A program made the translations under genes and the position numbers. Below the pieces are notes generated by a model. The model saw nothing but the letters and a program-made list of their open reading frames with translations, ran no database searches and was not told the DNA's origin. 21,655 nt of DNA, taken from NCBI GenBank assembly GCA_016931085.1, contig JAFGFO010000252.1:1-21655 (forward strand), in the 5' to 3' direction. Origin of the DNA: Thermoflexales bacterium. GTDB taxonomy: Bacteria > Chloroflexota > Anaerolineae > Fen-1058. This document shows positions 502-21,634 of the stretch, piece after piece; positions within the stretch are counted from its first letter, which is position 1, and each line of letters starts with the position of its first letter.

Positions 502-2373
502 ATGTCTCAAACACAACCGTCCGCAAGCCCACCCCACAACGCGCTCAAGTCAAATACGCCCGGCTGGAACCTGGAACTGGTACGCGGCGAACACGCCGCA
601 TACGCCCTCATCCTGGCCATGGCAGCCGCCATGCGCCTGTACCGCCTGGGTCTGGCGCCGCTTTCGGGCAGCGAAGCCGCCCAGGCCCTGGCCGCATGGC
701 ACGGGACACCCCCACCCATCGGCGCCAGCCCAGTGCTGTACGCGATCAACAGCCTGCTCTTTGGGCTAATGGGCACCTCCGATGGCCTGGCCCGCTTGGG
801 AGCAGCCATCTGCGGCGTGGCCCTGGCCGGCGTACCGTTCTTCCTGCGACACCGCCTGGGACGCGTTGGCGCATTGAGCGCAGCAGCCATACTGGCGATT
901 TCACCCACAGCCATTATGGCCTCGCGCACGCTGAGCGGCGAGGTCATCGTGGCTTTGGCCAGCCTGGGACTGTTGGCTGCCGGCGAACGCTATGTGCAAA
1001 CACACGAACGCCGGTGGGCCTACAGCCTCGCTATTCTTTTGGCACTCGGATTGAGCGGAGGGAGCGGCATATACACCATGACGATTGCCTATGCCGGCGG
1101 CCTGGGACTATGGATACTCGCCGGCCAACCAGCCTCCGAGTTTGCCCCGCTGCTCTCCACCCTTCAATCCGAGTGGAAACGGCTGGCCCTCATCCTGGCC
1201 AGCGGCCTCGTCGGACTGAGTACAGCTTTGTTGCTGCGCCCGGCCGGGCTAGCCGCAGTGGGGAATCTGCTATCCGCCTGGCTGCAAGGCTTCCAACCCT
1301 CTGCACTTGCTACGAGCTGGCACATGCCATTCCAAGTCATGATCTCTTATGAATTGTTGGCACTGCTGGCAGGAGTTGCCGGGCTGGCCATCGCCTCACT
1401 CCGCAACAAGCTGCTCGGCATTTTCCTGGGCTACTGGGCCGCGGTCGCGCTGCTGATCGTCACGCTGCGGCAAGGACGCACACCCCAAGACATGGTGCTG
1501 GTCATCACCCCGCTGGCCTGCCTGGCCGCCTACGCCATCGAAGAGTTGGCCGGCTTGTTTCGCCGGCCGCGCGCCCACGGCATCGAATTAGCCTTTGTGG
1601 CCTCCCTCCTGGTCATCCTGGCCTTCGAGCTACTAGGACTGGCCGACTATGCCACCCACCCTGGCACCGCCCAGTCCTTCGCGCTACTGGGACGCGCTAT
1701 CAGCGTTCACCGTGTTGTCATCCAGACTATTTTGGGCTCGGCACTGCTCGTCATCGCCATCCTACTGATCATCGGCCTGAGCGGGTACGAGCTTGCCCTG
1801 CGCAATGGCCTGCTGGCCGCGCTGATTGTACTGATCCTGGGCACATGGTCAGGCGGCTGGGGCGCAGCCCAACGATGCCCAGGCGACTCGCGCGAGCTGC
1901 TGGCCGGGCCACGCCCCACTTCAACATCCGTGCGCTTGATGGTCGCCACGCTCAACGCCACCTCCGCCCAGAAAACCGGCGAGCCTTACGCGTTGCCGCT
2001 GAGTGTCGTCATCCCATCCAGCTTGCCTGACCCAACTTCGCTGAACGTTTACGAGCCATCTTCCACCTCTTTGACCTCATCCGGGCTGGAAAGCGTGCTC
2101 AGATGGCACTTGCGCGATTTTGCTCAAGCCCAGTTTGTATCTGCATTGGATGAAAGCAGCACGCCCTACGTCGTGGTCGCCCCGGCCGGCACGACGCCAG
2201 CCCTGGCCAGCAGCTACGCCGGCCAGGATTTTGCCGTGACGACCAGCGGTGGGCAAGCCAGCTCGACGGCCAGGGTGCTTGGTTGGCTGTTGTATCACCA
2301 GACAACCGAGACACCCCCTGCCCTGGAAAGCGTCGTGGTCTGGGTGAGGCAGGAAGTAGGGAGTAGGGAGTAG
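502..2373 (+). CDS. Polytopic GT-C/Agl23-like membrane protein lacking the Asp-Glu motif
   Basis: This is a 623-residue protein with roughly ten hydrophobic segments up to about residue 455, then a soluble domain to the end. Overall shape and the first-loop context (RLYRLGLAPLSGSEAAQAL, about residues 45-62) match GT-C (GT39/PMT-like) glycosyltransferases. The acidic pair normally seen there (His-Asp-Glu in the next gene) reads Ser57-Glu58. The soluble part keeps a W-H-L-R-D-F block (535-540) and a later P-Y-V-V-V-A block that align with W-Y-L-R-D-Y and P-I-V-I-A in the downstream Agl23-like protein, so the two look like tandem paralogues. The ATG at 502 has only a weak purine-rich stretch upstream. 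The last codons (QEVGSRE and TAG) are made of a heptamer repeat, so the original C-terminus may have differed. It may be a non-catalytic partner or a divergent enzyme; its substrate is unknown. Confidence 0.7.
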   Translation: MSQTQPSASPPHNALKSNTPGWNLELVRGEHAAYALILAMAAAMRLYRLGLAPLSGSEAAQALAAWHGTPPPIGASPVLYAINSLLFGLMGTSDGLARLGAAICGVALAGVPFFLRHRLGRVGALSAAAILAISPTAIMASRTLSGEVIVALASLGLLAAGERYVQTHERRWAYSLAILLALGLSGGSGIYTMTIAYAGGLGLWILAGQPASEFAPLLSTLQSEWKRLALILASGLVGLSTALLLRPAGLAAVGNLLSAWLQGFQPSALATSWHMPFQVMISYELLALLAGVAGLAIASLRNKLLGIFLGYWAAVALLIVTLRQGRTPQDMVLVITPLACLAAYAIEELAGLFRRPRAHGIELAFVASLLVILAFELLGLADYATHPGTAQSFALLGRAISVHRVVIQTILGSALLVIAILLIIGLSGYELALRNGLLAALIVLILGTWSGGWGAAQRCPGDSRELLAGPRPTSTSVRLMVATLNATSAQKTGEPYALPLSVVIPSSLPDPTSLNVYEPSSTSLTSSGLESVLRWHLRDFAQAQFVSALDESSTPYVVVAPAGTTPALASSYAGQDFAVTTSGGQASSTARVLGWLLYHQTTETPPALESVVVWVRQEVGSRE

Positions 2374-2381
2374 GAAGTAGG
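2352..2381 (+). repeat. GGGAGTA heptanucleotide array
   Basis: Four tandem heptamers are visible: GGAAGTA, GGGAGTA, GGGAGTA, GGAAGTA, followed by GG. The array covers the last codons and TAG stop of the upstream membrane protein and runs into the intergenic gap. It resembles the short tandemly repeated heptanucleotides (STRR type) described in cyanobacteria. In the 94-bp gap that follows (2374-2467) there is a small palindrome AGGGG-TTG-CCCCT (2418-2430), and I see no confident promoter. Confidence 0.8.
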
Positions 2382-7974: not shown

Positions 7975-8607
7975 TTAAGAAAAACGTAGCCGAGTACGGC
8001 AGACGTCCGCCGGCGCACCGGCCAGCCCTAACGCGTCCAACACCTCATCGGGACGGCCAGTGCCACCGCTTTGGCTGGCCAGCAGATGGGCCCACAACGT
8101 CACACGCCCGACGCTTGCCTCAAGCAAGCGCAAATCGAGGACCAGGGGGCGCAGGTCATACGACTTGCCACGCCGCTGGCGCGGCAGGCTGACCGCTTCG
8201 AGCAGGGCGCGCACCCGTTGGCCCAACGCCTCAAGCGGCTCGCTCGTTTCGACGCTCAACTGGTACTCGGCCGAGTGCAGCGCGGCCTGCAATGCCGGCG
8301 CATCGAGCGGCACAGGCACGATAGATATCACCTGCAAGCCATCCGGCAACTGCGGCGCAAGCGCTTGCAGGACCGCCTCAGGCGTGAGCGGCTGGCTCAA
8401 CACCACGTCCGCCATCTCGCCTGTGCTGGCACAGCCCACCGGCAAGGCCGAAGCGAACTGCAGCTTGGGTTGGGGGTGAAAGCCCTGCGAATACGCCACC
8501 GGCAGGCCGGCCCGGCGCAAGATGCGCTCCCAGGTCTTGGCCATGTCCAGGTGGCCAACGTAACGCAGCCCATGCTGCTTGGTAAAAACAACTCTTAAAC
8601 GGATCAT
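7975..8607 (-). CDS. DUF2344 / TIGR03936 radical SAM-associated protein
   Basis: This 210-residue protein has the family's N-terminal signature (RLRVVFTKQHGLRYVGHLD, then RAGLPVAYSQGFHPQPKL) and normal length. In many bacteria it is encoded next to, or fused with, TIGR03960 radical SAM proteins; its function is unknown, and the pairing suggests it helps bind the substrate. Here its ATG overlaps the TGA of the upstream partner as ATGA, so translation is likely coupled. The overlap sits at the edge of a heptamer array. The rne/rng and rplU genes that I recall as frequent neighbours elsewhere are not present. Confidence 0.9.
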   Translation of the reverse strand: MIRLRVVFTKQHGLRYVGHLDMAKTWERILRRAGLPVAYSQGFHPQPKLQFASALPVGCASTGEMADVVLSQPLTPEAVLQALAPQLPDGLQVISIVPVPLDAPALQAALHSAEYQLSVETSEPLEALGQRVRALLEAVSLPRQRRGKSYDLRPLVLDLRLLEASVGRVTLWAHLLASQSGGTGRPDEVLDALGLAGAPADVCRTRLRFS

Positions 8608-10532
8608 GTATGTTTTACGTCTTGCGTTTTACGTTTCACGTCCCCCGGCGGGCAGTACCACGTGTCTAGCCGCAGCTCGTCAAAGGTTGGAAGGATGCCA
8701 CAAGCCAGGCACTGTTCGCGGCAGTCAGGGCGCACCTCGCCCTGCTGGCTCATCACGTAATCCTTCAATAAATAAGCCTTGCGCACGCCGGTGTCAATGT
8801 GATCCCAGGGGAAGACCTCGTCCGACGCACGCTGTCGATAGGTGTAAAACGCCGGCTCAAGGGGCGGCACAGCCTCGGCAAAGGCTTGCTGCCAGGCCTC
8901 GAAGCGAAAGTGCTCGCTCCAGGCGTCGAACTGGGCGCCCAACTGCCAGGCGCGATAAATGACCTGGCCCAAGCGCCGGTCGCCGCGTGACAGGAATGCC
9001 TCTAAAAAAGTCTCTTCCGGCTCAACCCAGTTGAGCTTGATCCCCGGCCGGCGCAACTGCTGCTTGAGCAGCGCCAGCTTTTGACGGATGGCCTCGTCAG
9101 CGTCCAGGCTGACCCACTGAAACGGCGTGTGTGGCTTGGGGATGAAGGTGGCACAGCCAATATTGACTTGGGCAGCCCGGCCGTGGACCCGGCGTCCCTC
9201 AGCCAACACAGCCTGGCTCAACTCGACGATGGCTTGCACATCCTCCAAGGTCTCGTCAGGATGGCCAATCATAAAGTAAAGCTTGATCGTGCGCCAGCCA
9301 CGCTCAAAAACCTGGCGCACCGTGTCCAGCACCTGCTGGTCGGGGATAAACTTGTTAATGCGGCGGCGCTGAGCCTCAGTAGCCGCTTCAGGGGCAAAGG
9401 TCAAACCGGTGCGCCGTCTCCCCACACCCCCCTCCGGGCCAGGCGCGGCGTTGAGCGCGTCGGCCAAACCGACCGAGAAGGAATCTATACGCAAACTGGG
9501 CAGCGAAAGCGCCACGCTTTGCCCGGCATACTTGTGGCTGAGCTGTCCTACCAACTCAGCCACCTGGGAATAGTCGCTGGATGATAGCGACAGCAAGCCC
9601 ACCTCATCGTAGCCGGTCGCGTGCAGGAGCTCGTCTACCACCGCGACGACCTGTTCAACCGGACGCTCGCGCACCGGCCGGGTGACAAAGCCGGCGTGGC
9701 AGTAGCGGCAGCCGCGCGTGCAACCGCGCATGATCTCGACCGAAGCACGATTGTGAGTGATGTCGATAAAAGGCACCACCAGGCGTGTGGGGGGCGGCGG
9801 CAACTCGGATACGATACGTTTCGTGATGCGCTGCGGCAGGCCTGCCACAGTGGGAAACACGCGAGCCACAGTGCCGTCGTCCTTGTAATTCACGTCGTAA
9901 AAACGCGGTACGTATACGCCGGGAATGGAGGCCAGGGAATGGAGAATGGCAGATTTCAGATTGCGAATCGCGGATTGAGAATTGCGGATACGCAATACGC
10001 AATACGCAATATCCAAGATAACTTCCTCTCCCTCGCCGATGACAAAGGCGTCGATAAAATCGCTCATCGGCTCAGGGTTGTAGGTGGCGTGCCCGCCAGC
10101 AATGACGATCGGGTGAGAATCATCGCGCTCGGCAGCCAGCACCGGTATGCCACCCAGATCAAGCATGCTCAGGGCATTCGTGTACAATTGCTCGTAAGGC
10201 AAGCTAAAACCGACCAGGTCGAATTCAGCTAGCCCCCGCTTGTTTTCGAGCGAGTAAAGCGGCAAGCCGGCCTGCCGGAGTTGAGCCTGCATGTCAGGCC
10301 AAGGCGCATAAACGCGCTCGGCCAGCAGATCTGGCTGCCGGTTGAGAATGTCGTACAGCACGGCCAAGCCCAGATTGGACATGCCGATCTCGTACACATC
10401 GGGGAAGCACAAAGCCACGCGCAGAGAGGCCGCGTCCCAATCCTTGACGAGGCTGCCCCATTCACCGCCGGTGTAACGGCCGGGCTTTTCGACGCGCGGC
10501 AAAACACGCTCGAGCACTGATTGAATAGTCAT
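8604..10532 (-). CDS. TIGR03960 B12-binding domain radical SAM protein
   Basis: The product is 642 residues from ATG 10532; a TTG start at 10556 would cross the -10 box and is rejected. The N-terminal part (about 25-175) is the B12-binding-like domain (DVYEIGMSNLGLAVLYDIL, IGEGEEVI). The radical SAM core follows, with the [4Fe-4S] ligands C271, C275 and C278 in RGCTRGCRYCHAG and a glycine-rich region with an LTFAPEAATE block. Near the C-terminus a CREQCLACG cluster and a further Cys may hold a second metal site. The reaction is not known. Two oddities concern repeats: residues about 174-199 are encoded by a degenerate heptamer array where relatives normally go almost directly to the IPGVYVP motif, and the last residues (DVKRKTQDVKHT) are also heptamer-encoded. 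It is first in a two-gene operon with its own promoter. Confidence 0.9.
   Translation of the reverse strand: MTIQSVLERVLPRVEKPGRYTGGEWGSLVKDWDAASLRVALCFPDVYEIGMSNLGLAVLYDILNRQPDLLAERVYAPWPDMQAQLRQAGLPLYSLENKRGLAEFDLVGFSLPYEQLYTNALSMLDLGGIPVLAAERDDSHPIVIAGGHATYNPEPMSDFIDAFVIGEGEEVILDIAYCVLRIRNSQSAIRNLKSAILHSLASIPGVYVPRFYDVNYKDDGTVARVFPTVAGLPQRITKRIVSELPPPPTRLVVPFIDITHNRASVEIMRGCTRGCRYCHAGFVTRPVRERPVEQVVAVVDELLHATGYDEVGLLSLSSSDYSQVAELVGQLSHKYAGQSVALSLPSLRIDSFSVGLADALNAAPGPEGGVGRRRTGLTFAPEAATEAQRRRINKFIPDQQVLDTVRQVFERGWRTIKLYFMIGHPDETLEDVQAIVELSQAVLAEGRRVHGRAAQVNIGCATFIPKPHTPFQWVSLDADEAIRQKLALLKQQLRRPGIKLNWVEPEETFLEAFLSRGDRRLGQVIYRAWQLGAQFDAWSEHFRFEAWQQAFAEAVPPLEPAFYTYRQRASDEVFPWDHIDTGVRKAYLLKDYVMSQQGEVRPDCREQCLACGILPTFDELRLDTWYCPPGDVKRKTQDVKHT
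8608..8642 (-). repeat. ACGTAAA-type heptamer array at the radical SAM operon junction
   Basis: On the plus strand the five units are GTATGTT, TTACGTC, TTGCGTT, TTACGTT and TCACGTC. The array encodes the last 11-12 residues of the radical SAM protein and ends one base before the ATGA stop/start overlap with the DUF2344 gene. The arrangement suggests that repeat insertion or expansion rewrote the C-terminus and created the present junction. Confidence 0.8.
9923..10013 (-). repeat. In-frame heptamer array inside the radical SAM gene
   Basis: Read on the plus strand from 9923, thirteen consecutive 7-base units run to 10013, nearly all with AT at positions 3-4 (GAATGGA, AGATTGC, GAATCGC, GGATACG, CAATACG, CAATACG, CAATATC and so on). 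They encode the residues AYCVLRIRNSQSAIRNLKSA (about 176-195). The frame is kept, which needs a net length divisible by 3 (for example nine units, 63 bases). The tract falls between the B12-binding and radical SAM domains, a place likely to tolerate a linker. Confidence 0.75.
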
Positions 10533-10541
10533 AAGATGGTC

Positions 10542-10570
10542 ATTATAACATGCCAAACAGGGGTGAGCAA
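10542..10570 (-). promoter_or_regulatory. Promoter of the radical SAM operon
   Basis: TTGCTC (10570-10565) and TATAAT (10547-10542) on the minus strand have a 17-base spacer. Transcription would begin near 10535, about 3 bases before the ATG at 10532. No Shine-Dalgarno is present, so the message is probably close to leaderless. Confidence 0.7.
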
Positions 10571-13246: not shown

Positions 13247-13310
13247 ATCATCCATAAAGTAGATTGTGAACGATCACCCTCATCTCAAAGCATCGTTCAA
13301 GGAGATCACT

Positions 13311-16300
13311 ATGAATAAGAAATCTATCGTACTAGCATGTGTGGGGCTGCTCGTCATCGTCGCCTTCATAGCCAGCGTGGCAGAAGGAAGCCGAGATTTA
13401 ACGCCCAACCTGTTTCTGTCCCCCTTCATGTCCCCCATCGACGGCACTGTCTTTGACGATGCTGATCTGGATGGGGTGCACGATACTGGTGAAGGCGGCC
13501 TAGCGGGCGTCACGATCCAGTTGCGCAAAGACAATCTCAATGTCATTGCCTCCACAAGCACCAACGCTACCGGCTACTATGTCTTTACCAATGTTGACCA
13601 GCCCAACGACAGCAGTGCAGTGACCGTGCACGAAATCGACCCGTTCGGCTATGGCAGCACGACACCCAACTCGGTGGCCATTCCCATAAGCGAAACCATC
13701 TACCCCCATACGGTGAATTTCGGCGACCACGGCATTGGCGAGATCGTAGGCGTCGTTTTTGACGACCTCAACGGCAACGGCATTAAGGAGGGGCTAGAGC
13801 CAGGGCTTAGCGGCGTGACCGTCTCGCTCTTACAAGGAGGATCGACGATCAGCTCAACCATTACCGGCAGCAATGGCCGCTATCAATTCTCTCACCTGTG
13901 GCTGGGCACGTACAGAGTCCGCTCCCAAAGGCCACTTCACTACCTCAATACAAACGCGGGTGAAATAGAGGTTATGCTGACTACGCCCGGCCAGACAGAA
14001 GAATGGGATTTCGGCTACCGGGGATATGGAAGCGTCCGGGGCGTGGTCTTTGACGACCGCAACAACAACCAGGTACAAGACACCGGCGAGCCAGGCATCG
14101 GCGGGGTGACGATCACCCTGCGATACCGGGCCGGCGCAACGATCAGCACGACCACGACGTCTATCACCGGCAGCTACGAATTCGTTCCGGTGTGGTTGGG
14201 CGATTACACACTCCACGAAACAGACCTGCCTAACTATACCAGCACGACGTTCAACGACGTCGACTTTACACTGAGCACTCCAGGCCAGGCAGAGACCATC
14301 AACTTTGGCGACCAGGCCCAGGCCAGGGTCCACGGGCGGGTCTTTAACGATCTCAATGCCAACGGCGTCCCAGACAGCGGCGAGCCAGGCATCGGCGGGG
14401 TGGAAATCCGCTTGATCGACAGCGGCGGCGGCAGCCGCATCCGCAACACTGGCCTCGACGGCTCCTACGAGTTCACTTCTCTTCCCTTAGGGAATTACAC
14501 CGTCGAGGAAAGCGATCCATCAGGCTTTAGCAGCACCACACCCAACGTTGTGCCTGTCTCGCTGACTCTACCCGGCCAAGACATAACGGTCAACTTTGGC
14601 GACCGGGGCTTGCCGGGCGAGGTGAGCGGCACGGTCTTTGACGACGTCAATGGAAATGGCACACAGGACATCGGCGAGCTTGGACTCGAGGGCGTCACCA
14701 TCACGCTCAAGATAGGCGGGACTGTGATCACCGCCACGCGCACGCTCAGCGACGGCAGCTTTTTGCTCGAGCCAGTCTGGCCTGGGGGCTACACGGTCGA
14801 AGAAACAGACCCGCCCGGCTACGCCAGCACCACGTCTAACGTGAGAAGTATCTCCCTGGCGCCAGAGGGAAAAGTCGTGGTCAATTTTGGCGACCGCGGC
14901 ATAGGCACCATCGGCGGCGTGGTTTTTAATGACCTCAACGGCGATGGCGTGCAAGGCATAGGCGAAGATGGCCTTGTCAGCGTCACTCTGCGCTTGCTGC
15001 AAAGCGGCCTCCCAATCAGCACGACGACCACGAATAGCTTTGGCAGTTATAGCTTCCCAGCACTTGCGGTGGGGGTCTATACCGTGCAGGAAGTCGACCC
15101 TCCCGGCTACGTCAGCACCACACCCAACGAGCTAGGCGTATCCATCCTGCCCGGCAGCAGCGGGCAGGCCGACTTTGGCGATCAGCAAGTAGGCACGATC
15201 AGTGGAATCGTGTACAACGACGTCAACGGCAACGGCACGTCGGACCCGGGTGAAAGTGGCATTGCCGGCGTCACCATCCAGTTGCGACAAAGCGACAGCA
15301 CGCTGAGCACGACGACTACCACCCTCACCGGCACCTACATCTTTACCGATGTCCAGGCCGGCCTCTACACCGTGCGTGAAACAGACCTAGTCGGCTACGT
15401 CAGCACAACTCCTAACGACGTCACTGTACCCGTCGCCGTCGGCGGCAGCGCCACAGCCAGCTTTGGCGACCAGGAACAAGGCAGCGTCAGCGGCGTGGCC
15501 TTTAACGACACCAACAGCAACGGCACGCAAGACGGGGGGGAGAGCGGCATCGCCGGCGTCACCATCCAGTTGCGGCAAGGCAGCAGCACGCTCGCCACGA
15601 CCAGCACAAACAGCAATGGCAATTACAGTTTCAGCGGAGTCACGCCAGGGAACTATAGCGTCCGGGCTGGGAGACCGGCCGGGTTCATCAACACCACGCC
15701 TGACGAGCTTGCCATTTTCATCGCGGCCGGCGGCAGCGCGCAAGCCTCCTTCGGTTACCAACAACAAGGCACAATCAGCGGGGTGGCCTTTAACGATAGC
15801 AATGGAAACGGGAGCCAAGATAGCGGCGAAGCCGGCATCGGCGGCGTGTTAGTGACCCTGAACACGGTCACCGGCACACTTGTCGCCACGATGACAACCG
15901 GCAGCGATGGCTCTTATCTGTTCAGCGGCATCACGCCCGGCAGTTACGAGATATTGGCAGGTGAGGTGCCAGGCTACGTACGAACGACGCCAGGTTCAGC
16001 CGGAGTTTCCGTGCTGCCTGGAGGAAGTGGAAGCGCCAGTTTCGGCTATCAGGAAATAGGCGCGATCGGGGGTGAAGTCTTTAATGACAGCAATGGCAGC
16101 GGCATCCGGGATAGTGGTGAAGGGGGATTTGGCGGGGTGACGATCACGTTGAGAACGGCCGGCGGCACGTTTGTCACCGAGACACTCAGCGTAGGCAACG
16201 GCTCTTACATCTTCCACGATGTTGCGCCAGGCAACTATGTGGTCTCGGCAGCCCCTATCGCCGGCTTTGTGCGCACCACACTTGAATCAGTAGCTGCCTC

Positions 16301-19300
16301 TGTCGCACCCGGCAGCAGCGCGCAAGCCTCCTTTGGTTACCAGGAGACGGGCACTATCGGCGGCGAGATATTCAACGATAGCAACGGAAATGGCATCAAA
16401 GATAGCAGCGAGGATGGCCTGGGCGGGGTGACGGTCACGTTGAGAACGGCCGGCGGCACGTTTGTCACCGAGACGCTCAGCGTGGGCAACGGCTCTTATA
16501 TCTTTGCCGGCCTCGAGACGGGTGACTATATCGTCTCGGCAGCCGACGTGCCGGGCTTTGTACGCACCACTTTGGGCTCGGTGGGGGTACCGTTGCCGGC
16601 TGGCAGCAGCGGCAGCGCCAATTTTGGCTACCAGGAAATGGGCACGATCAGCGGAGAAACCTTTAACGACGCCAACGGCAACAGCGTTCGAGACAGTGGC
16701 GAAGCAGGCATGAGCGGCGTGGTCATTACCCTACGAAGAGGCGACGGGACGATCTGGGGGACAGTTGTCAGCGCTGGCGACGGCTCTTATCACTTTAGCA
16801 ACGTCAGCGCCGGCAGCTACATCCTGTCGGCGGCCGATGTGCCGGGCTATATGCATACCACAGTCAGCACATTGGGAGTTTCGGTCGCGCCCGGCGGCAG
16901 CGCCACAGCCAGCTTTGGCTACCAAGCAGTTGGCACGGTCGGTGGAGTCGTCTACAACGATGTGAACGGCAACGGCGTCAGGGACAGCGGCGAAGCGGGG
17001 ATCGGTGGGGTAACAGTCACTTTGAGGACGACCACCGGCACGCTCCAAACAACCCTCAGCACCGGCAGCGGATCGTACCTGTTCAGCCAGGTGGCGCCGG
17101 GCAGTTACATCGTGGCAGCCGCCGACGTGCCAGGCTATGTGCACACCACGCCCGGCTCTGTGGGCATCTCGATCGCACCCGGCGGCAGCGCGCCAGCCTC
17201 CTTTGGCTACCAGCAACAAGGCTCGGTCGGCGGGGTGGTCTACAACGATGCGAACGGCAACGGCGTCAGGGACAGCGGCGAAGCTGGCATCAGCGGCATA
17301 GTCGTCACCTTGACACTGAGCAGCGGGGGATTGATCGGCACAGCCACCAGCGTAGGCAACGGTGACTATACTTTTAGCGGCGTGACGGCCGGCGCCTATT
17401 GGGTGACAGCGGCAGAAGTGCCAGGGTACATGCACACGACGCTCAATCCGGTGGCCATTTCCGTGGCCGCCGGCGGCAGCGGGGCAGCTTCCTTTGGCTA
17501 CCAGCAACAGGGCACGGTCAGCGGCGTGGTCTACAACGACACCAACGGCAACGGCGTTCAAGACGGCAGCGAAACAGGCCTCGGCGGCGTAATGGTCACG
17601 CTGAAAACACTGAGTGACACAATTGCCCTGACGGCAAGCAGCACGGGTGATGGGAGCTATGTCATGCACGGCGCTAACGCCGGCAGTTACACGGTCGAGG
17701 CAGCGGATGTGCCTGGCTATGTGCGCACGACGGCCAACCCAGTAGCAGTCTCCGTGGCCGCCGGCAGCAGCGCGCAGGCCAACTTTGGCTACCAGCAAAG
17801 CGGCACCATCAGCGGCGTGGCCTTCAACGACCTCAACGGCAACGGCCTCAAAGATGCGAGCGAGCTTGGCATGGGCAGCGTGCTGATCAGCTTGAAAACA
17901 GGCTCCGGCACCACGGTGATGACGACGACCAGTGCCGGCGATGGCTCCTACTACCTGTTTACCGGCCTCGCCGCCGGCAGTTACGAAGTGGCGGCGTCTG
18001 ATGTGCCTGGGTACGTGCGTACCACACCCGCTTCGGCGGCAGCGCACTTGGTCGCCGGTGGCGCCGTCGTGATCAACTTTGGCTACCAGCAAGTGGGCAC
18101 GATCGGCGGCGTGGTCTACAGCGACGCCAACGGCAACGGCGTCCGAGATAGCGGCGAGCTGGGGATCGGCGGAGTGACAGTGACCTTGAGGACAACCACC
18201 AGCACGCTTCAAACGACCCTCAGCACAGGCGATGGCTCGTACCTGTTGAGCGGGGTCGAGGCCGGCAGTTACACCGTGTCGGCGGTCGATGTGCCGGGCT
18301 ACATGCACACCACGCTCGGCTCGGTGGGCGTTTCAATTGGCGCCGGCGGCAGCGCCAGCGCCAACTTTGGCTACCAGGCGATTGGCACAGTCAGCGGCGT
18401 GGTCTTTAACGACGCCAATGGTAATGGCGTCAAGGAGGCCGGCGAGCTGGGCTTGGGCGGTGTGGTCATTACGCTGACCCTGCCCGACGGAAGCGGAGCG
18501 CGAACAGCAACCAGCGCCGGCAACGGCGATTACATGTTCACCAACGTCGCAGTGGGCAGTTATATCGTATCAGCACCCGAAATAGCCGGCTTTGCCCGTA
18601 CCACGCTAGGCTCCATAGGTGTTTCAGTGGCAGCCGGCGGCAGCGCGCAGGCATCCTTCGGTTACCAGCAGGTAGGCACGATCAGCGGCGTGGCCTTTAA
18701 CGACACCAACGGCAACAGCACGCAGGACGCCGGCGAACCAGGGATAGGCAGCCTGATCGTCACGGCGCAAGCCCTGGCCGGGACAGGCATCGCCACAGCC
18801 ACCACAACCAGTAGCGGCTTTTACGTGATCGGCGGCTTGACTGTGGGCAGTTACCAGGTCTCGGCATCTGTCGTGCAAGACTTTGTTCGCACTACACCCA
18901 GCCCAGTCACGGTCTTTGTTGCCCAGGGTGGCAGCGCCACTGCCCATTTTGGTTACCAGCGCAAAGGCACGATCAGCGGCGTGACTTTCAACGACAGGAA
19001 CGGCAACGGCGTGCAGGATACAGGCGAGCCAGGGCTAGCCGTAACTCTCACGCTCCAGACCGGAGCCGGGACGACGATTACATACACCACCAGCACTAAC
19101 AACGGCTCGTACTCATTCGGCCAGATAACGCCTGGAAGCTACGTGGTGTCAGCCGCCGAGGTGCCTTCGTATATACGCACTACACCCGAATCGATTACCG
19201 TCAGCGTATCATCCAGCCAGAACGCGCTGGCCTCATTCGGCTACCAGCAAATCGGCACGCTCAGCGGGGTGACCTTCAACGACCTCAATGGCAACGGGAT

Positions 19301-20294
19301 CAAGAACGACGGCGAAGGCGGACTAGGCGGCGTGGTCATCACGCTGACCAGAGGCAGCAGTGTACTGACGACAACCAGCGTGGGCGATGGCTCCTACACC
19401 TTCATCGACCTGGCGGCCGATAACTATACCGTGGCAGCAGCCGACGTGCCCGGTTACTCGCGCACCACGGCCAGCTCGGTCACTGTCACGATAGGGGACA
19501 ACAACGCGCAGGCATCCTTTGGCTACCGGCAAATCGGCACCGTCAGCGGCATGGTGTTCCGCGACGACAACGCCAACGCGCAAATCGATCCGGGCGAGCA
19601 AGGGATAGGCGGTGTGGAAATAACCTTGCTCACACCACAAGGCAGCGTGAGTGCTACCCAGCAGACCGCCGGCAGCGGCTACTATCTGTTCAGCCACGTG
19701 CTCCCTGGCGACTATATCGTCAGGGAAACGACACCGCCTGGCTTCAGCAGCACAACCCCAGACGAAGTACCCATCACCTTGACGGCCGGCGGAAGCGCCA
19801 GCGCCAATTTTGGCGACCGGGCAGGATATGATCTCCGCTTGCCGTTTATAGCGAAAAAGTATGATTCGTCCAAAGTGCGTGGCATCCACCTGCCTAAAAT
19901 CACCAAAAACTATGTGTTGCCGATCAGGTTTCCGGTATATATCGGCCCAGCTATTTCCTCCCGCCCAGTCGGGACTATAGGCGAGGTCTTTTACGCGCTC
20001 TCGGTGCGAATACCGGGCACCCTGCCCACCACGAGTCGCTTTTATCTCTCGAGCCGAACTGATCAGGCGACCGAGGTGCTCGTCGACGACGAGCTCGTCA
20101 TCCTGGTAGGAGGAACGCCGGTCTTTACCGCGACCTTTAGCACAGCCAGCAATCCCACGCCAGTCCGGCGCATCGTCGAGGTACCATACGCCGTGATGGG
20201 GCAAATAGCCGGGAGGACAGTGCAGGTTGTGTATCGTGACGTGTATGGCAGCAATGTCTCGGCCGACAGACTGTGGCTGATCTTTGTTGACTAA
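13311..20294 (+). CDS. Giant exported SdrD-B-repeat stalk protein (2327 aa)
   Basis: ATG 13311 has AAGGAG (13299-13304) 6 bases upstream; a GTG at 13266 adds only leader-encoded residues. The product starts with a signal peptide (about 1-26, SIVLACVGLLVIVAFIASV). From about residue 45 to 2172 it consists of 22 SdrD-B/Cna-B-like beta domains of about 96 residues. Nearly all open with a motif like VxFNDxNGNGxxDxGExGIGGV, whose D/N-rich loop is expected to bind calcium, and close with NFGD or SFGYQ. After the last repeat come two LP motifs (L2177-PFIAKKY and L2194-PKITKNY) and an unrecognised C-terminal domain of about 125 residues. There is no LPXTG signal and no C-terminal membrane segment. 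The likely role is a long, calcium-stiffened adhesin or surface filament. It is monocistronic, with its own promoter and terminator. Confidence 0.9.
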   Translation: MNKKSIVLACVGLLVIVAFIASVAEGSRDLTPNLFLSPFMSPIDGTVFDDADLDGVHDTGEGGLAGVTIQLRKDNLNVIASTSTNATGYYVFTNVDQPNDSSAVTVHEIDPFGYGSTTPNSVAIPISETIYPHTVNFGDHGIGEIVGVVFDDLNGNGIKEGLEPGLSGVTVSLLQGGSTISSTITGSNGRYQFSHLWLGTYRVRSQRPLHYLNTNAGEIEVMLTTPGQTEEWDFGYRGYGSVRGVVFDDRNNNQVQDTGEPGIGGVTITLRYRAGATISTTTTSITGSYEFVPVWLGDYTLHETDLPNYTSTTFNDVDFTLSTPGQAETINFGDQAQARVHGRVFNDLNANGVPDSGEPGIGGVEIRLIDSGGGSRIRNTGLDGSYEFTSLPLGNYTVEESDPSGFSSTTPNVVPVSLTLPGQDITVNFGDRGLPGEVSGTVFDDVNGNGTQDIGELGLEGVTITLKIGGTVITATRTLSDGSFLLEPVWPGGYTVEETDPPGYASTTSNVRSISLAPEGKVVVNFGDRGIGTIGGVVFNDLNGDGVQGIGEDGLVSVTLRLLQSGLPISTTTTNSFGSYSFPALAVGVYTVQEVDPPGYVSTTPNELGVSILPGSSGQADFGDQQVGTISGIVYNDVNGNGTSDPGESGIAGVTIQLRQSDSTLSTTTTTLTGTYIFTDVQAGLYTVRETDLVGYVSTTPNDVTVPVAVGGSATASFGDQEQGSVSGVAFNDTNSNGTQDGGESGIAGVTIQLRQGSSTLATTSTNSNGNYSFSGVTPGNYSVRAGRPAGFINTTPDELAIFIAAGGSAQASFGYQQQGTISGVAFNDSNGNGSQDSGEAGIGGVLVTLNTVTGTLVATMTTGSDGSYLFSGITPGSYEILAGEVPGYVRTTPGSAGVSVLPGGSGSASFGYQEIGAIGGEVFNDSNGSGIRDSGEGGFGGVTITLRTAGGTFVTETLSVGNGSYIFHDVAPGNYVVSAAPIAGFVRTTLESVAASVAPGSSAQASFGYQETGTIGGEIFNDSNGNGIKDSSEDGLGGVTVTLRTAGGTFVTETLSVGNGSYIFAGLETGDYIVSAADVPGFVRTTLGSVGVPLPAGSSGSANFGYQEMGTISGETFNDANGNSVRDSGEAGMSGVVITLRRGDGTIWGTVVSAGDGSYHFSNVSAGSYILSAADVPGYMHTTVSTLGVSVAPGGSATASFGYQAVGTVGGVVYNDVNGNGVRDSGEAGIGGVTVTLRTTTGTLQTTLSTGSGSYLFSQVAPGSYIVAAADVPGYVHTTPGSVGISIAPGGSAPASFGYQQQGSVGGVVYNDANGNGVRDSGEAGISGIVVTLTLSSGGLIGTATSVGNGDYTFSGVTAGAYWVTAAEVPGYMHTTLNPVAISVAAGGSGAASFGYQQQGTVSGVVYNDTNGNGVQDGSETGLGGVMVTLKTLSDTIALTASSTGDGSYVMHGANAGSYTVEAADVPGYVRTTANPVAVSVAAGSSAQANFGYQQSGTISGVAFNDLNGNGLKDASELGMGSVLISLKTGSGTTVMTTTSAGDGSYYLFTGLAAGSYEVAASDVPGYVRTTPASAAAHLVAGGAVVINFGYQQVGTIGGVVYSDANGNGVRDSGELGIGGVTVTLRTTTSTLQTTLSTGDGSYLLSGVEAGSYTVSAVDVPGYMHTTLGSVGVSIGAGGSASANFGYQAIGTVSGVVFNDANGNGVKEAGELGLGGVVITLTLPDGSGARTATSAGNGDYMFTNVAVGSYIVSAPEIAGFARTTLGSIGVSVAAGGSAQASFGYQQVGTISGVAFNDTNGNSTQDAGEPGIGSLIVTAQALAGTGIATATTTSSGFYVIGGLTVGSYQVSASVVQDFVRTTPSPVTVFVAQGGSATAHFGYQRKGTISGVTFNDRNGNGVQDTGEPGLAVTLTLQTGAGTTITYTTSTNNGSYSFGQITPGSYVVSAAEVPSYIRTTPESITVSVSSSQNALASFGYQQIGTLSGVTFNDLNGNGIKNDGEGGLGGVVITLTRGSSVLTTTSVGDGSYTFIDLAADNYTVAAADVPGYSRTTASSVTVTIGDNNAQASFGYRQIGTVSGMVFRDDNANAQIDPGEQGIGGVEITLLTPQGSVSATQQTAGSGYYLFSHVLPGDYIVRETTPPGFSSTTPDEVPITLTAGGSASANFGDRAGYDLRLPFIAKKYDSSKVRGIHLPKITKNYVLPIRFPVYIGPAISSRPVGTIGEVFYALSVRIPGTLPTTSRFYLSSRTDQATEVLVDDELVILVGGTPVFTATFSTASNPTPVRRIVEVPYAVMGQIAGRTVQVVYRDVYGSNVSADRLWLIFVD
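13443..19825 (+). repeat. 22 tandem SdrD-B-like repeats, about 290 bp each
   Basis: Counted by the start motif, 22 units occur in direct order. Repeats 1, 3-7 and 22 end in FGD, whereas repeat 2 and the whole central block 8-21 end in FGY. The same block changes from xxDPPGYxSTTPN to AADVPGYxxTT before that ending. Pairs 13-14 and 17-18 share features (TLRTTT with TLQTTLSTG, and TLTL with GNGDY), suggesting an older multi-repeat duplication. The central block appears to have been amplified while the cap repeats were kept. Confidence 0.9.
16131..16505 (+). repeat. Recently homogenised repeat pair 10/11
   Basis: The 69 bases 16146-16214 and 16437-16505, 291 bp apart, differ at only three positions, all silent third-codon changes (ACA/ACG, GTA/GTG, TAC/TAT). 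Both encode TLRTAGGTFVTETLSVGNG followed by SYIF. Repeats 13 and 14 show a second such tract (16950-16996 against 17238-17284, 46 of 47 identical). Confidence 0.85.
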
Positions 20295-20334: not shown

Positions 20335-21489
20335 CTACAGCGCCTGCGCCAGGACCTCGCCCAACTCGGCCTCCGCCAGTTGGACCGGGTTACCTTGCGT
20401 GCTGCTGGCGGTTTGGGCTTTTTCAACCAGCAGCGGAAAGTCTTGCTCAGTCAGTCCATAAGCGCTCAGCGAGAGAATCTGCAGCGCCTCGCACAGTTCG
20501 CGTACCCATACGATGGCATCAACCGCGCCAGCCGCCACATTTCCGGTCAGGAGTTGGCCGATTTCGTCGTAACGCCGCAGGGCAAGGCTGCCAGGCTGCC
20601 GTAGCCGCAGCGCCTGGACGTTGGCAGCCATCACGTGCGGCAAGAGACAGGCACAGACGGCCCCATGCGGAGCCGGAAACATCCCACCCACTACCCCGGC
20701 CAGCCCGTGCACCACACCCAGCTTGGCGTTAGCCAAGGCCAGCCCCCCCAGGAGACTGGCCAGGGACATGTCCTCGCGGGCAGCCGCGTCGTCGCCGTGC
20801 TCGCAGGCACGCCGCAGCGAGCGGGCAGCTCGGCCTATCCCTTCGCGGCAAAAAGCATCGGTCAGCGGGTTCGCCTTGTTGGAGACAAAGGGCTCCACCA
20901 GTTGGGTGAGAGCATCCAGCCCCGTGCTGGCAGTGAGCTTCGGCGGCAAGCTGTGGGTAAGCTCCGGATCCACCAGCGCTAGACGCGGCAGCATATAGGG
21001 GCCGCGCAAGCTGACCTTGAGGCGGTGCTGAGGTGAAGCCAATACCGCATTGCGGGTCACCTCGGCGCCGGTGCCGGCAGTGGTGGGGATAGCCATATAG
21101 GGAGCGGAGGGATTGGCAAGCGGGCGGCCTCGACCGACAATCTCCAGGTAATCGAGCGGCTCCCCCTCGTTGCTCAGCAACGCCGCCACCGCCTTGGCGG
21201 CATCCAGCACACTCCCACCGCCAAAGCCCACCACCACGTCACACCTATCCTGCCTGGCGCGCTCGGTGCCTGCGCAGGCCACTTCGATCGTTGGCTCGCC
21301 GAGTACCGAAAAGACGGAGGATTCGACGCCACAGGCTGCCAATTGCTCGATCAGCGGACTGGCTCGCGTGGCTGTGCTGCCGATGACCACCAGTGCGCGC
21401 CGGCCCATCTCGGCCGCAAGCACACCAGCCTGAGCCAGCACACCGTTCCCAAAGATAATCCGGGTAGCTGTTGCGAATTCAAAAAACAT
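20335..21489 (-). CDS. Iron-containing (group III) alcohol dehydrogenase
   Basis: This 384-residue protein is of normal family length and has an N-terminal nucleotide-binding half with GFGGGSVLDAAK (about 94-105) and IPTTAGTGAEVT. In the metal-binding half, D192 lies in GLDALTQ, H261 in VHGLAG and H275 in PHGAV; Q196 stands where FucO-type enzymes have His. I recall this Gln form in a branch of the family, so it is probably active, perhaps with a different metal preference. The reaction would be NAD(P)-dependent oxidation of an alcohol or reduction of an aldehyde in the cytoplasm; the substrate cannot be read from the sequence. The start ATG 21489 directly abuts an AT-rich heptamer array, and no Shine-Dalgarno is seen. 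Confidence 0.9.
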   Translation of the reverse strand: MFFEFATATRIIFGNGVLAQAGVLAAEMGRRALVVIGSTATRASPLIEQLAACGVESSVFSVLGEPTIEVACAGTERARQDRCDVVVGFGGGSVLDAAKAVAALLSNEGEPLDYLEIVGRGRPLANPSAPYMAIPTTAGTGAEVTRNAVLASPQHRLKVSLRGPYMLPRLALVDPELTHSLPPKLTASTGLDALTQLVEPFVSNKANPLTDAFCREGIGRAARSLRRACEHGDDAAAREDMSLASLLGGLALANAKLGVVHGLAGVVGGMFPAPHGAVCACLLPHVMAANVQALRLRQPGSLALRRYDEIGQLLTGNVAAGAVDAIVWVRELCEALQILSLSAYGLTEQDFPLLVEKAQTASSTQGNPVQLAEAELGEVLAQAL

Positions 21490-21490
21490 A

Positions 21491-21532
21491 TTAATTGTTA
21501 ATTATTAATTGTTAATTGTTAATTATTAATGG
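21491..21532 (-). repeat. TTAATTG heptanucleotide array before the dehydrogenase
   Basis: Six exact-length units on the plus strand: TTAATTG, TTAATTA, TTAATTG, TTAATTG, TTAATTA, TTAATGG. The array begins one base upstream of the dehydrogenase start codon and occupies its whole predicted leader and -10 region, so its copy number could affect expression. Confidence 0.85.
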
Positions 21533-21580: not shown

Positions 21581-21634
21581 GCGGGGCGATGGAAGACTTC
21601 CGAAGTCTAAGAAGACTTCGGAAGTCTGGCCCGC
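21581..21634. repeat. AGACTTC palindromic repeat cluster
   Basis: AGACTTCCGAAGTCT (21594-21608) and AGACTTCGGAAGTCT (21613-21627) are each nearly self-palindromic and are exact reverse complements of each other. GCGGG (21581-21585) and CCCGC (21630-21634) add an outer stem. It is a REP-like intergenic repeat. The rest of the 166-bp end region, 21535-21580 and 21635-21655, shows no gene. Confidence 0.75.

Follow-up and report, generated by a model that had tools for sequence, protein, structure and literature searches.

Heptamer repeats in the linker of a B12-binding radical SAM protein from an Anaerolineae bacterium and its relatives

Results

The locus

We analysed a stretch of 21,655 nucleotides from a Thermoflexales bacterium (Anaerolineae, Chloroflexota), referred to below as the window. 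The gene of interest encodes a B12-binding radical SAM protein of the TIGR03960 family (Table 1). The 650-aa protein scores 717.8 bits against the NCBIfam model, for which the curated cut-off is 462.3, spans positions 1-597 of the 605 of the model, and matches Radical_SAM_N2 and Radical_SAM in Pfam. An in-frame ATG at 10532 is a likelier start codon than the listed TTG. The cysteines C279, C283 and C286 are invariant across the 18 sequences compared, and we take them to be the CxxxCxxC cluster motif of the radical SAM family. The gene for a DUF2344 protein follows as the downstream neighbour with a 4-base overlap.

Table 1. Features of the window and, in the last four lines, enzyme genes of a related genome (G226) that contain heptamer arrays
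Feature	Position	Strand	Evidence
TIGR03960 family B12-binding radical SAM protein	8604..10556	-	650 aa as listed; NCBIfam and Pfam
DUF2344 protein	7975..8607	-	Pfam PF10105, 156.9 bits
Imperfect heptamer tract, ~12 units, in the linker between the B12-type domain and the radical SAM domain	9937..10019	-	lag-7 score 30
Perfect 3.4 units, 5' arm of the tract	9988..10011	-	TRF, 100% match; unit ATACGCA, ATTGCGT on the coding strand
Degenerate 3' arm of the tract, opposite-orientation units CGCAATT..CGCAATC	9959..9987	-	TRF 14-mer, 2.2 copies, 9959-9989
Weak ACGTAAA-type heptamer array, C-terminal tail of the TIGR03960 protein	8609..8641	-	lag-7 score 14
AGTAGGR array overlapping the end of ORF 502-2373	2346..2381	+	lag-7 score 21; TRF
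TTAATTG array just upstream of ORF 20335-21489 (minus)	21491..21530	.	lag-7 score 27
LigA, in-frame heptamer array	L202:14144-16228 (G226)		above NCBIfam cut-off
GlpK, in-frame heptamer array	L189:16289-17905 (G226)		above NCBIfam cut-off
HemW, in-frame heptamer array	L196:13376-14989 (G226)		above NCBIfam cut-off
GlyQS, in-frame heptamer arrays	L199:12354-15455 (G226)		GlyQ and GlyS above NCBIfam cut-offs

An earlier sequence-only reading of this DNA had reported period-7 DNA inside the radical SAM enzyme gene, and this is borne out by our scores. The tract reaches 30 at lag 7, compared with a maximum of 13 when the window was simulated 100 times with a first-order Markov model, no simulation reaching 15. 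At a threshold of 15 the window contains three arrays at lag 7, none at lags 4-6, 8 and 10-13, and one each at lags 9 and 19, while lags 14 and 21, as multiples of 7, recover the lag-7 arrays again. The simulations and the other lags together rule out chance and ordinary coding periodicity as the source of the tract. The same reading had counted thirteen consecutive units at 9923-10013. The repeats are present, but this count was generous, as the block of 83 nt consists of about 12 imperfect units, and only the 3.4 units of the 5' arm are perfect.

On the coding strand the tract starts with three ATTGCGT units, which are followed by units in inverted orientation, and the 3' arm pairs with the 5' arm. 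The 5' arm encodes the heptapeptide cycle IAYCVLR and the 3' arm an IRNSQSAIRN-like peptide, which is a degenerate form of the antisense cycle TQYAIRN. Folded as RNA, the tract forms a hairpin of -22.3 kcal/mol (z -2.43), with equally good folds in 2 of 200 shuffles. In the predicted protein model the tract falls at the end of one helix (residues 176-192), a loop (193-199) and a second helix (200-209), with block pLDDT values of 89, 72 and 90. A structure search with this model, which is weak overall (mean pLDDT 63), gave nothing at E <= 0.001, and five sequences of solved structure match the protein, either along the radical SAM part or as RimO/MiaB-type chains.

The heptamer arrays of the window differ from one another in unit. 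The stop codon TAG of ORF 502-2373, at 2371-2373, falls within the AGTAGGR array, and the TTAATTG unit gives stops in both orientations. The window also contains a 2342-aa ORF (13266-20294) for a large repeat-domain protein, in which a 291-bp repeat occurs about 5.7 times, and a short palindromic repeat, GGAAGACTTC, in about 3.5 imperfect copies at 21591-21624, adjoining the TTAATTG array.

The linker in relatives

Family members without repeats have a plain, non-repetitive segment at the linker. Measured from GEGEE to YVP, the linker of the window protein is 44 residues long, and in 137 locus linkers, which are not all independent because some share a genome (e.g. L001 and L083), it has 38 aa in 64, 40 aa in 39 and more than 42 aa in 13. 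The repeats had been thought to encode about 21 extra residues, which is not what we find: repeats account for about 21 residues, but the linker is lengthened by a net 4-6 aa only. Because the corresponding segment of most relatives is non-repetitive and nearly as long, native codons have been overwritten or lost as well as gained. As far as extra residues are concerned, this comes close to the alignment outcome that the earlier reading had named as its refutation; it leaves the repeat origin of the segment intact.

The six closest proteins among the matches listed are 73-90% identical to the window protein. In the 21 pairs formed by the window protein and these six, identity outside the linker is 79-92%, and the variable part of the linker ranges from 21 to 71 residues. 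The window protein and its closest relative, P0001, are 92% identical outside the variable segment and agree in 8 of 21 positions inside it; inside the linker the window protein and P0003 agree in 4 of 21, and the best pair, P0003 and P0006, in 19 of 32. To judge from these alignments, the linker segment turns over fast.

For the window protein and 120 listed homologs we scored how well the linker peptide back-translates to lag-7 DNA, using 20 shuffles each. A z of at least 4.5 at lag 7 was obtained for 17 of the 121 linkers, all of them within the window protein and homologs P0002-P0028. Other lags were low in most of the 17, with lag 5 close in a few (P0007, P0013, P0016, P0020). P0001 gave only a weak lag-7 signal (z 2.6).

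Heptamer arrays were seen in the linker DNA of seven other genomes, namely G133, G226, G005, G167 and G066 (loci L100, L097, L018, L086 and L102) and, further, G375 and G102 (L150 and L153). The last two came from 20 stretches picked largely for long frames, in which four repeated known positives and two were new. The suggestion that the linker accepts such DNA is supported, and it has done so repeatedly: with arrays in the window and in these seven genomes the site is a hotspot, and its heptamers, which differ between relatives, belong to about five unit families. Five of the 137 linkers score at least 10 at lag 7, none at lags 4, 5, 8 or 11, and one at lag 10. Along the whole gene in 138 loci, five of seven lag-7 stretches are placed inside the linker by a strict segment rule that misses L102; the two outside are the C-terminal tail of the window protein and an AT-rich stretch in Romboutsia. 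An array together with its inverse, as judged by eye, is found in four linkers (L100, L102, L150, L153). The GACYTTY family is common to G133, G226, G375, G167 and G066. These five of the seven other genomes may be close kin, so that arrivals in the linker may number fewer than eight.

Other repeat-like peptides occupy the same linker in L001, L083, L085, L107, P0100, P0105 and P0118 (ERSAVESKSA, STSLHSAQHA, LRATKWRSNPLANEEIAS), and these probably derive from other interspersed repeats. In L139 (G426 C25) the homolog is split across frames at the linker, which is G-rich and without heptamers, and near the position of residue 370 of the window protein; the split is possibly a sequencing error.

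Unit families across genomes

Genome-wide counts are forward plus reverse pattern matches, of which longer arrays give several. In five of six genomes tested (G102, G005, G133, G375, G167) the linker's unit is abundant genome-wide, with 19-519 matches. Two of the linker unit families are nearly private and two are common within a group. The CGCCATT dimer has 288 matches in G102, one in G375 and none in four others, and CACGYYN has 519 in G005 and no more than 3 in any of 11 other genomes, with a reversed control that gave none in G005 and as many as 9 in G167. AAAGTRG is found 81 times in G133, 26 in G066 and 23 in G354, 9, 5 and 1 times in three others and in none of six (reversed controls up to 7), and GACYTTY has 11-86 matches in 7 of 12 genomes (86 in G375, 63 in G226, 19 in G167; reversed control 1). 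AAACGCC, the unit of the G226 linker, has a single match in G226, which is the linker itself, and 1-3 in three others; this speaks against a pure dispersal model. The adjoining unit in that linker, GACCTTC, belongs to the GACYTTY family. The window unit is present in 104 of 396 genomes of the class, with up to 157 matches per genome, and has none in 292, and its reversed control gave 3 matches in all among the matches listed for these genomes.

Heptamer richness is uneven. At a score of at least 15 we counted 49 lag-7 arrays over 400 kb of G226 and 33 over 311 kb of G102, against 16 over 740 kb of L001-L045 and 7 over 380 kb of Firmicutes-type loci, and 32 of the 36 Chloroflexota loci longer than 10 kb have no lag-7 array at 15. 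The 49 arrays of G226 compare with 0-15 at other lags: lags 4, 5, 11 and 13 gave none, and lags 8, 10 and 16 gave 15, 10 and 14. The 33 of G102 compare with 0-23 at the lags compared. Apart from 14, which is twice 7, lag 8 is the next commonest period, with 15 arrays in G226 and 21 or 23, in two counts, in G102, and these arrays are perhaps heptamers with one extra base. We counted 70 lag-7 arrays (at least 14) in 162 kb of G005 contigs, a density that is unrepresentative because the contigs were chosen for unit matches.

Arrays in other protein genes

Of the 49 arrays in G226, 28 are mostly noncoding and 17 lie fully within ORFs, 12 in number. Coding calls here are an ORF proxy that covers 89% of the 400 kb, and arrays are therefore depleted from genes. 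All 12 array-bearing ORFs match some family. A single family match spans the array in GlpK and LigA. In HemW the best match ends at the array and a second matching stretch exists, and GlyQS has two arrays between the subunit regions and two inside GlyS. The remaining ORFs, all above Pfam cut-offs, encode a methyltransferase, two FemAB proteins, DUF1786, Cas6, an amine-oxidase-type protein, a molybdopterin oxidoreductase and a LUD-domain protein. The arrays of the Cas6 and LUD ORFs are outside the matched stretch and may sit in a wrongly extended ORF. The G102 linker and a neighbouring 699-aa ORF, for which a Pfam search gave no match, have the peptides GEWRMANG and HSPFAIRH in common, following both CGCCATT cycles.

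Reading frames

Because 7 equals 1 modulo 3, all three frames of a regular array read the same heptapeptide cycle if its unit is free of stops, and only the total length of the array therefore matters for the frame. We propose this as the reason why dispersed heptamer families are tolerated in protein loops. Ohno reportedly pointed out that repeats read the same in every frame when their unit length does not divide by three; among the papers listed in our literature search, judged by title and abstract opening, none evidently dealt with this idea. Of 48 noncoding strand-arrays, 16 are free of stops in all three frames, compared with 57 of 480 shuffled ones. Of 29 ORF-interior arrays, 16 are open in all three frames on the sense strand (58 of 290 shuffled), a figure to which the choice of arrays itself contributes, since any array inside an ORF must have one open frame; on the antisense strand, with 7 of 29, there is little excess. 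The window tract has two of its three sense frames open, not three. A net length divisible by three would still be required, and selection would supply it.

Inverted pairs

Pairs of same-unit arrays within 200 bp are inverted or direct in ratios of 11:0 in G102, 3:0 in G226 and 22:7 in G005, with p-values of 0.00098, 0.25 and 0.0081 that are optimistic because pairs share arrays. Except for the G102 linker region, the stretches of G102 and G226 were selected without regard to pairs; the G005 contigs were chosen for unit matches, and several for visible pairs, which biases the 22:7 ratio. Among the inverted pairs, a 5' unit with 4 or more purines out of 7 is seen in 10 of 11 in G102, 3 of 3 in G226 and 17 of 22 in the picked G005 contigs, the pairs not being independent. 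The 5' unit of the window tract, with 3 purines of 7, is unlike most of these.

A universal hairpin rule was rejected, as an exact 10-mer test in G226 was positive for 10 of 49 arrays and 168 of 1000 noncoding controls, which is no clear enrichment. Unit, unit number and loop differ between array loci, and we found no conserved element of fixed sequence or length. A fixed mobile element was likewise rejected: the cores between inverted arms have little in common, and a blast comparison of 22 such cores, taken at picked sites in G005 and G102, gave only a local duplication and one 14-base match. In G005 (L248, L250, L253, L254) we observed nested inverted arrays of two families, GTGAAAC arms around GTAACTC/GGGTTAC arms, some of them around a palindromic CCGGA..TCCGG core of about 35 bp. 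A model of this core found its 5 seeds and 5 weak sites, 4 of them at E < 1, in the 162 kb of G005, and no site with an E lower than 1.5 in G226, G102 or the window (shuffled control E 2.7).

Discussion

We consider it likely that the window tract is a member of dispersed, lineage-specific heptamer families which pervade certain Anaerolineae (Chloroflexota) and are tolerated where fold and frame permit. The earlier proposal that spacer-type heptamer DNA entered a conserved enzyme in frame is supported by the linker DNA and the heptamer families of the relatives. Arrays, often as inverted pairs, would enter or grow in both spacers and genes, and in genes they would survive only where the fold accepts them and the net length keeps the frame. 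The accepting site in our case would be the predicted helix-loop-helix that closes the B12-type domain. Copy-dispersal plus local slippage might be the source of the repeats, the tract might be neutral for the enzyme, and the window genome would share the history seen in its relatives' genomes. A spreading process of this kind may lie behind the hotspot. It is tempting to go further and to see the heptamer-armed palindromes as self-propagating genomic parasites of Anaerolineae, which would have a unit of their own in each lineage, inverted pairs with a purine-rich 5' arm and nesting, would enter genes by virtue of a period of 7 that reads in any frame, and would steadily add peptide loops to core enzymes. 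We regard this extension as possible and rather doubtful.

A simpler explanation would be purely local replication slippage, by which a chance repeat in a floppy linker was expanded in place and is unlinked to repeats elsewhere. Passages of two reports (PMC4692102, PMC4679880) describe an excess of heptamers in many bacteria and a proposed origin by polymerase slippage; the single occurrence of AAACGCC in G226 and the adjacent perfect units of the window tract also fit. We nevertheless think it unlikely as a full account, given that five of the six genomes tested contain the unit of their own linker in abundance and that slippage does not produce inverted arms, yet inverted pairs prevail in G102, G226 and, with the bias of its sampling, G005. 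The inverted arms could instead point to a function at the RNA level, in which an mRNA hairpin regulates expression and coding is merely tolerated. The hairpin z-score, the purine-rich 5' unit of most inverted pairs and the position of some picked sites in spacers just ahead of start codons (seen by eye, uncounted) are consistent with this. The z-score is modest, however, the window tract lacks a purine-rich 5' unit, exact hairpins show no clear enrichment in G226, and units, lengths and loops vary among relatives at the linker, all of which makes a regulatory hairpin quite improbable.

One heptamer more or less would shift the frame, 7 not being divisible by three, and the 3.4 perfect units might in principle act as a phase-variable switch that toggles the enzyme off and on. 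Such a switch is highly improbable: most units are degenerate, which should lower slippage, and the 120 listed homologs are all 618-692 aa long, although the search itself selects for length. That ordinary coding sequence or an assembly artefact merely appears periodic is scarcely credible, with chance excluded by the simulations and the other lags and with heptamers at the same site in the DNA of seven other genomes.

The bacterial preference for 7-nt repeats is an open question, and a linker with different heptamer families in different genomes, together with core enzymes such as LigA and GlpK that contain heptamers in a relative, is a natural experiment for addressing it. If the dispersal of heptamer families into genes is true, it offers a route from non-coding repeats to protein and explains why genes can survive more easily a repeat period that does not divide by three. 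ORF calls and family alignments in these genomes should be used with caution, as they include repeat-derived peptides. Our literature search, which covered titles and abstract openings among the matches listed, with subscription journals mostly outside, did not find heptamer arrays inside Anaerolineae enzymes. Bacterial heptamer repeats are already known, and it is their invasion of coding DNA that looks new.

Over-represented heptameric repeats have been described in bacteria, such as GGGAATC in Xanthomonas, GGGGAYT in Nostoc, repeats in Calothrix and the GATAGRA satellites of Chloroflexus aurantiacus (PMC4692102, PMC6749651). In the passages of these reports that bear on the comparison, they resemble our arrays in having imperfect 7-nt units, many loci per genome, species-bound units and some inverted pairs. 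They differ in being mainly intergenic or scattered, whereas our arrays lie in frame in conserved enzymes, with differing units at one orthologous site. The TAACTGA repeats of marine Beggiatoaceae are also direct heptamers in many sets, few of which (10 of 170) are ORF-interior (PMC4679880). In contrast to our families, the relevant passages describe one unit conserved across phyla, with stops in the forward orientation and one inverted repeat only.

Two further systems are similar in their effect on proteins. Rickettsia palindromic elements are in-frame insertions into unrelated protein genes (PMC10969869), as are the arrays in GlpK, LigA, HemW and GlyQS of G226. As characterised in the part of that source concerned with them, the Rickettsia elements are about 150 bp long and encode a conserved peptide, whereas we see variable 7-nt arrays with a weak common core in G005 only. 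The tandem repeats in Borg ORFs are, in the corresponding part of their description, rapidly evolving and genome-specific and add peptide segments, as our arrays do (PMC9879509). Their unit lengths are divisible by three, whereas the units described here have 7 nt and are able to stay open through their indifference to frame.
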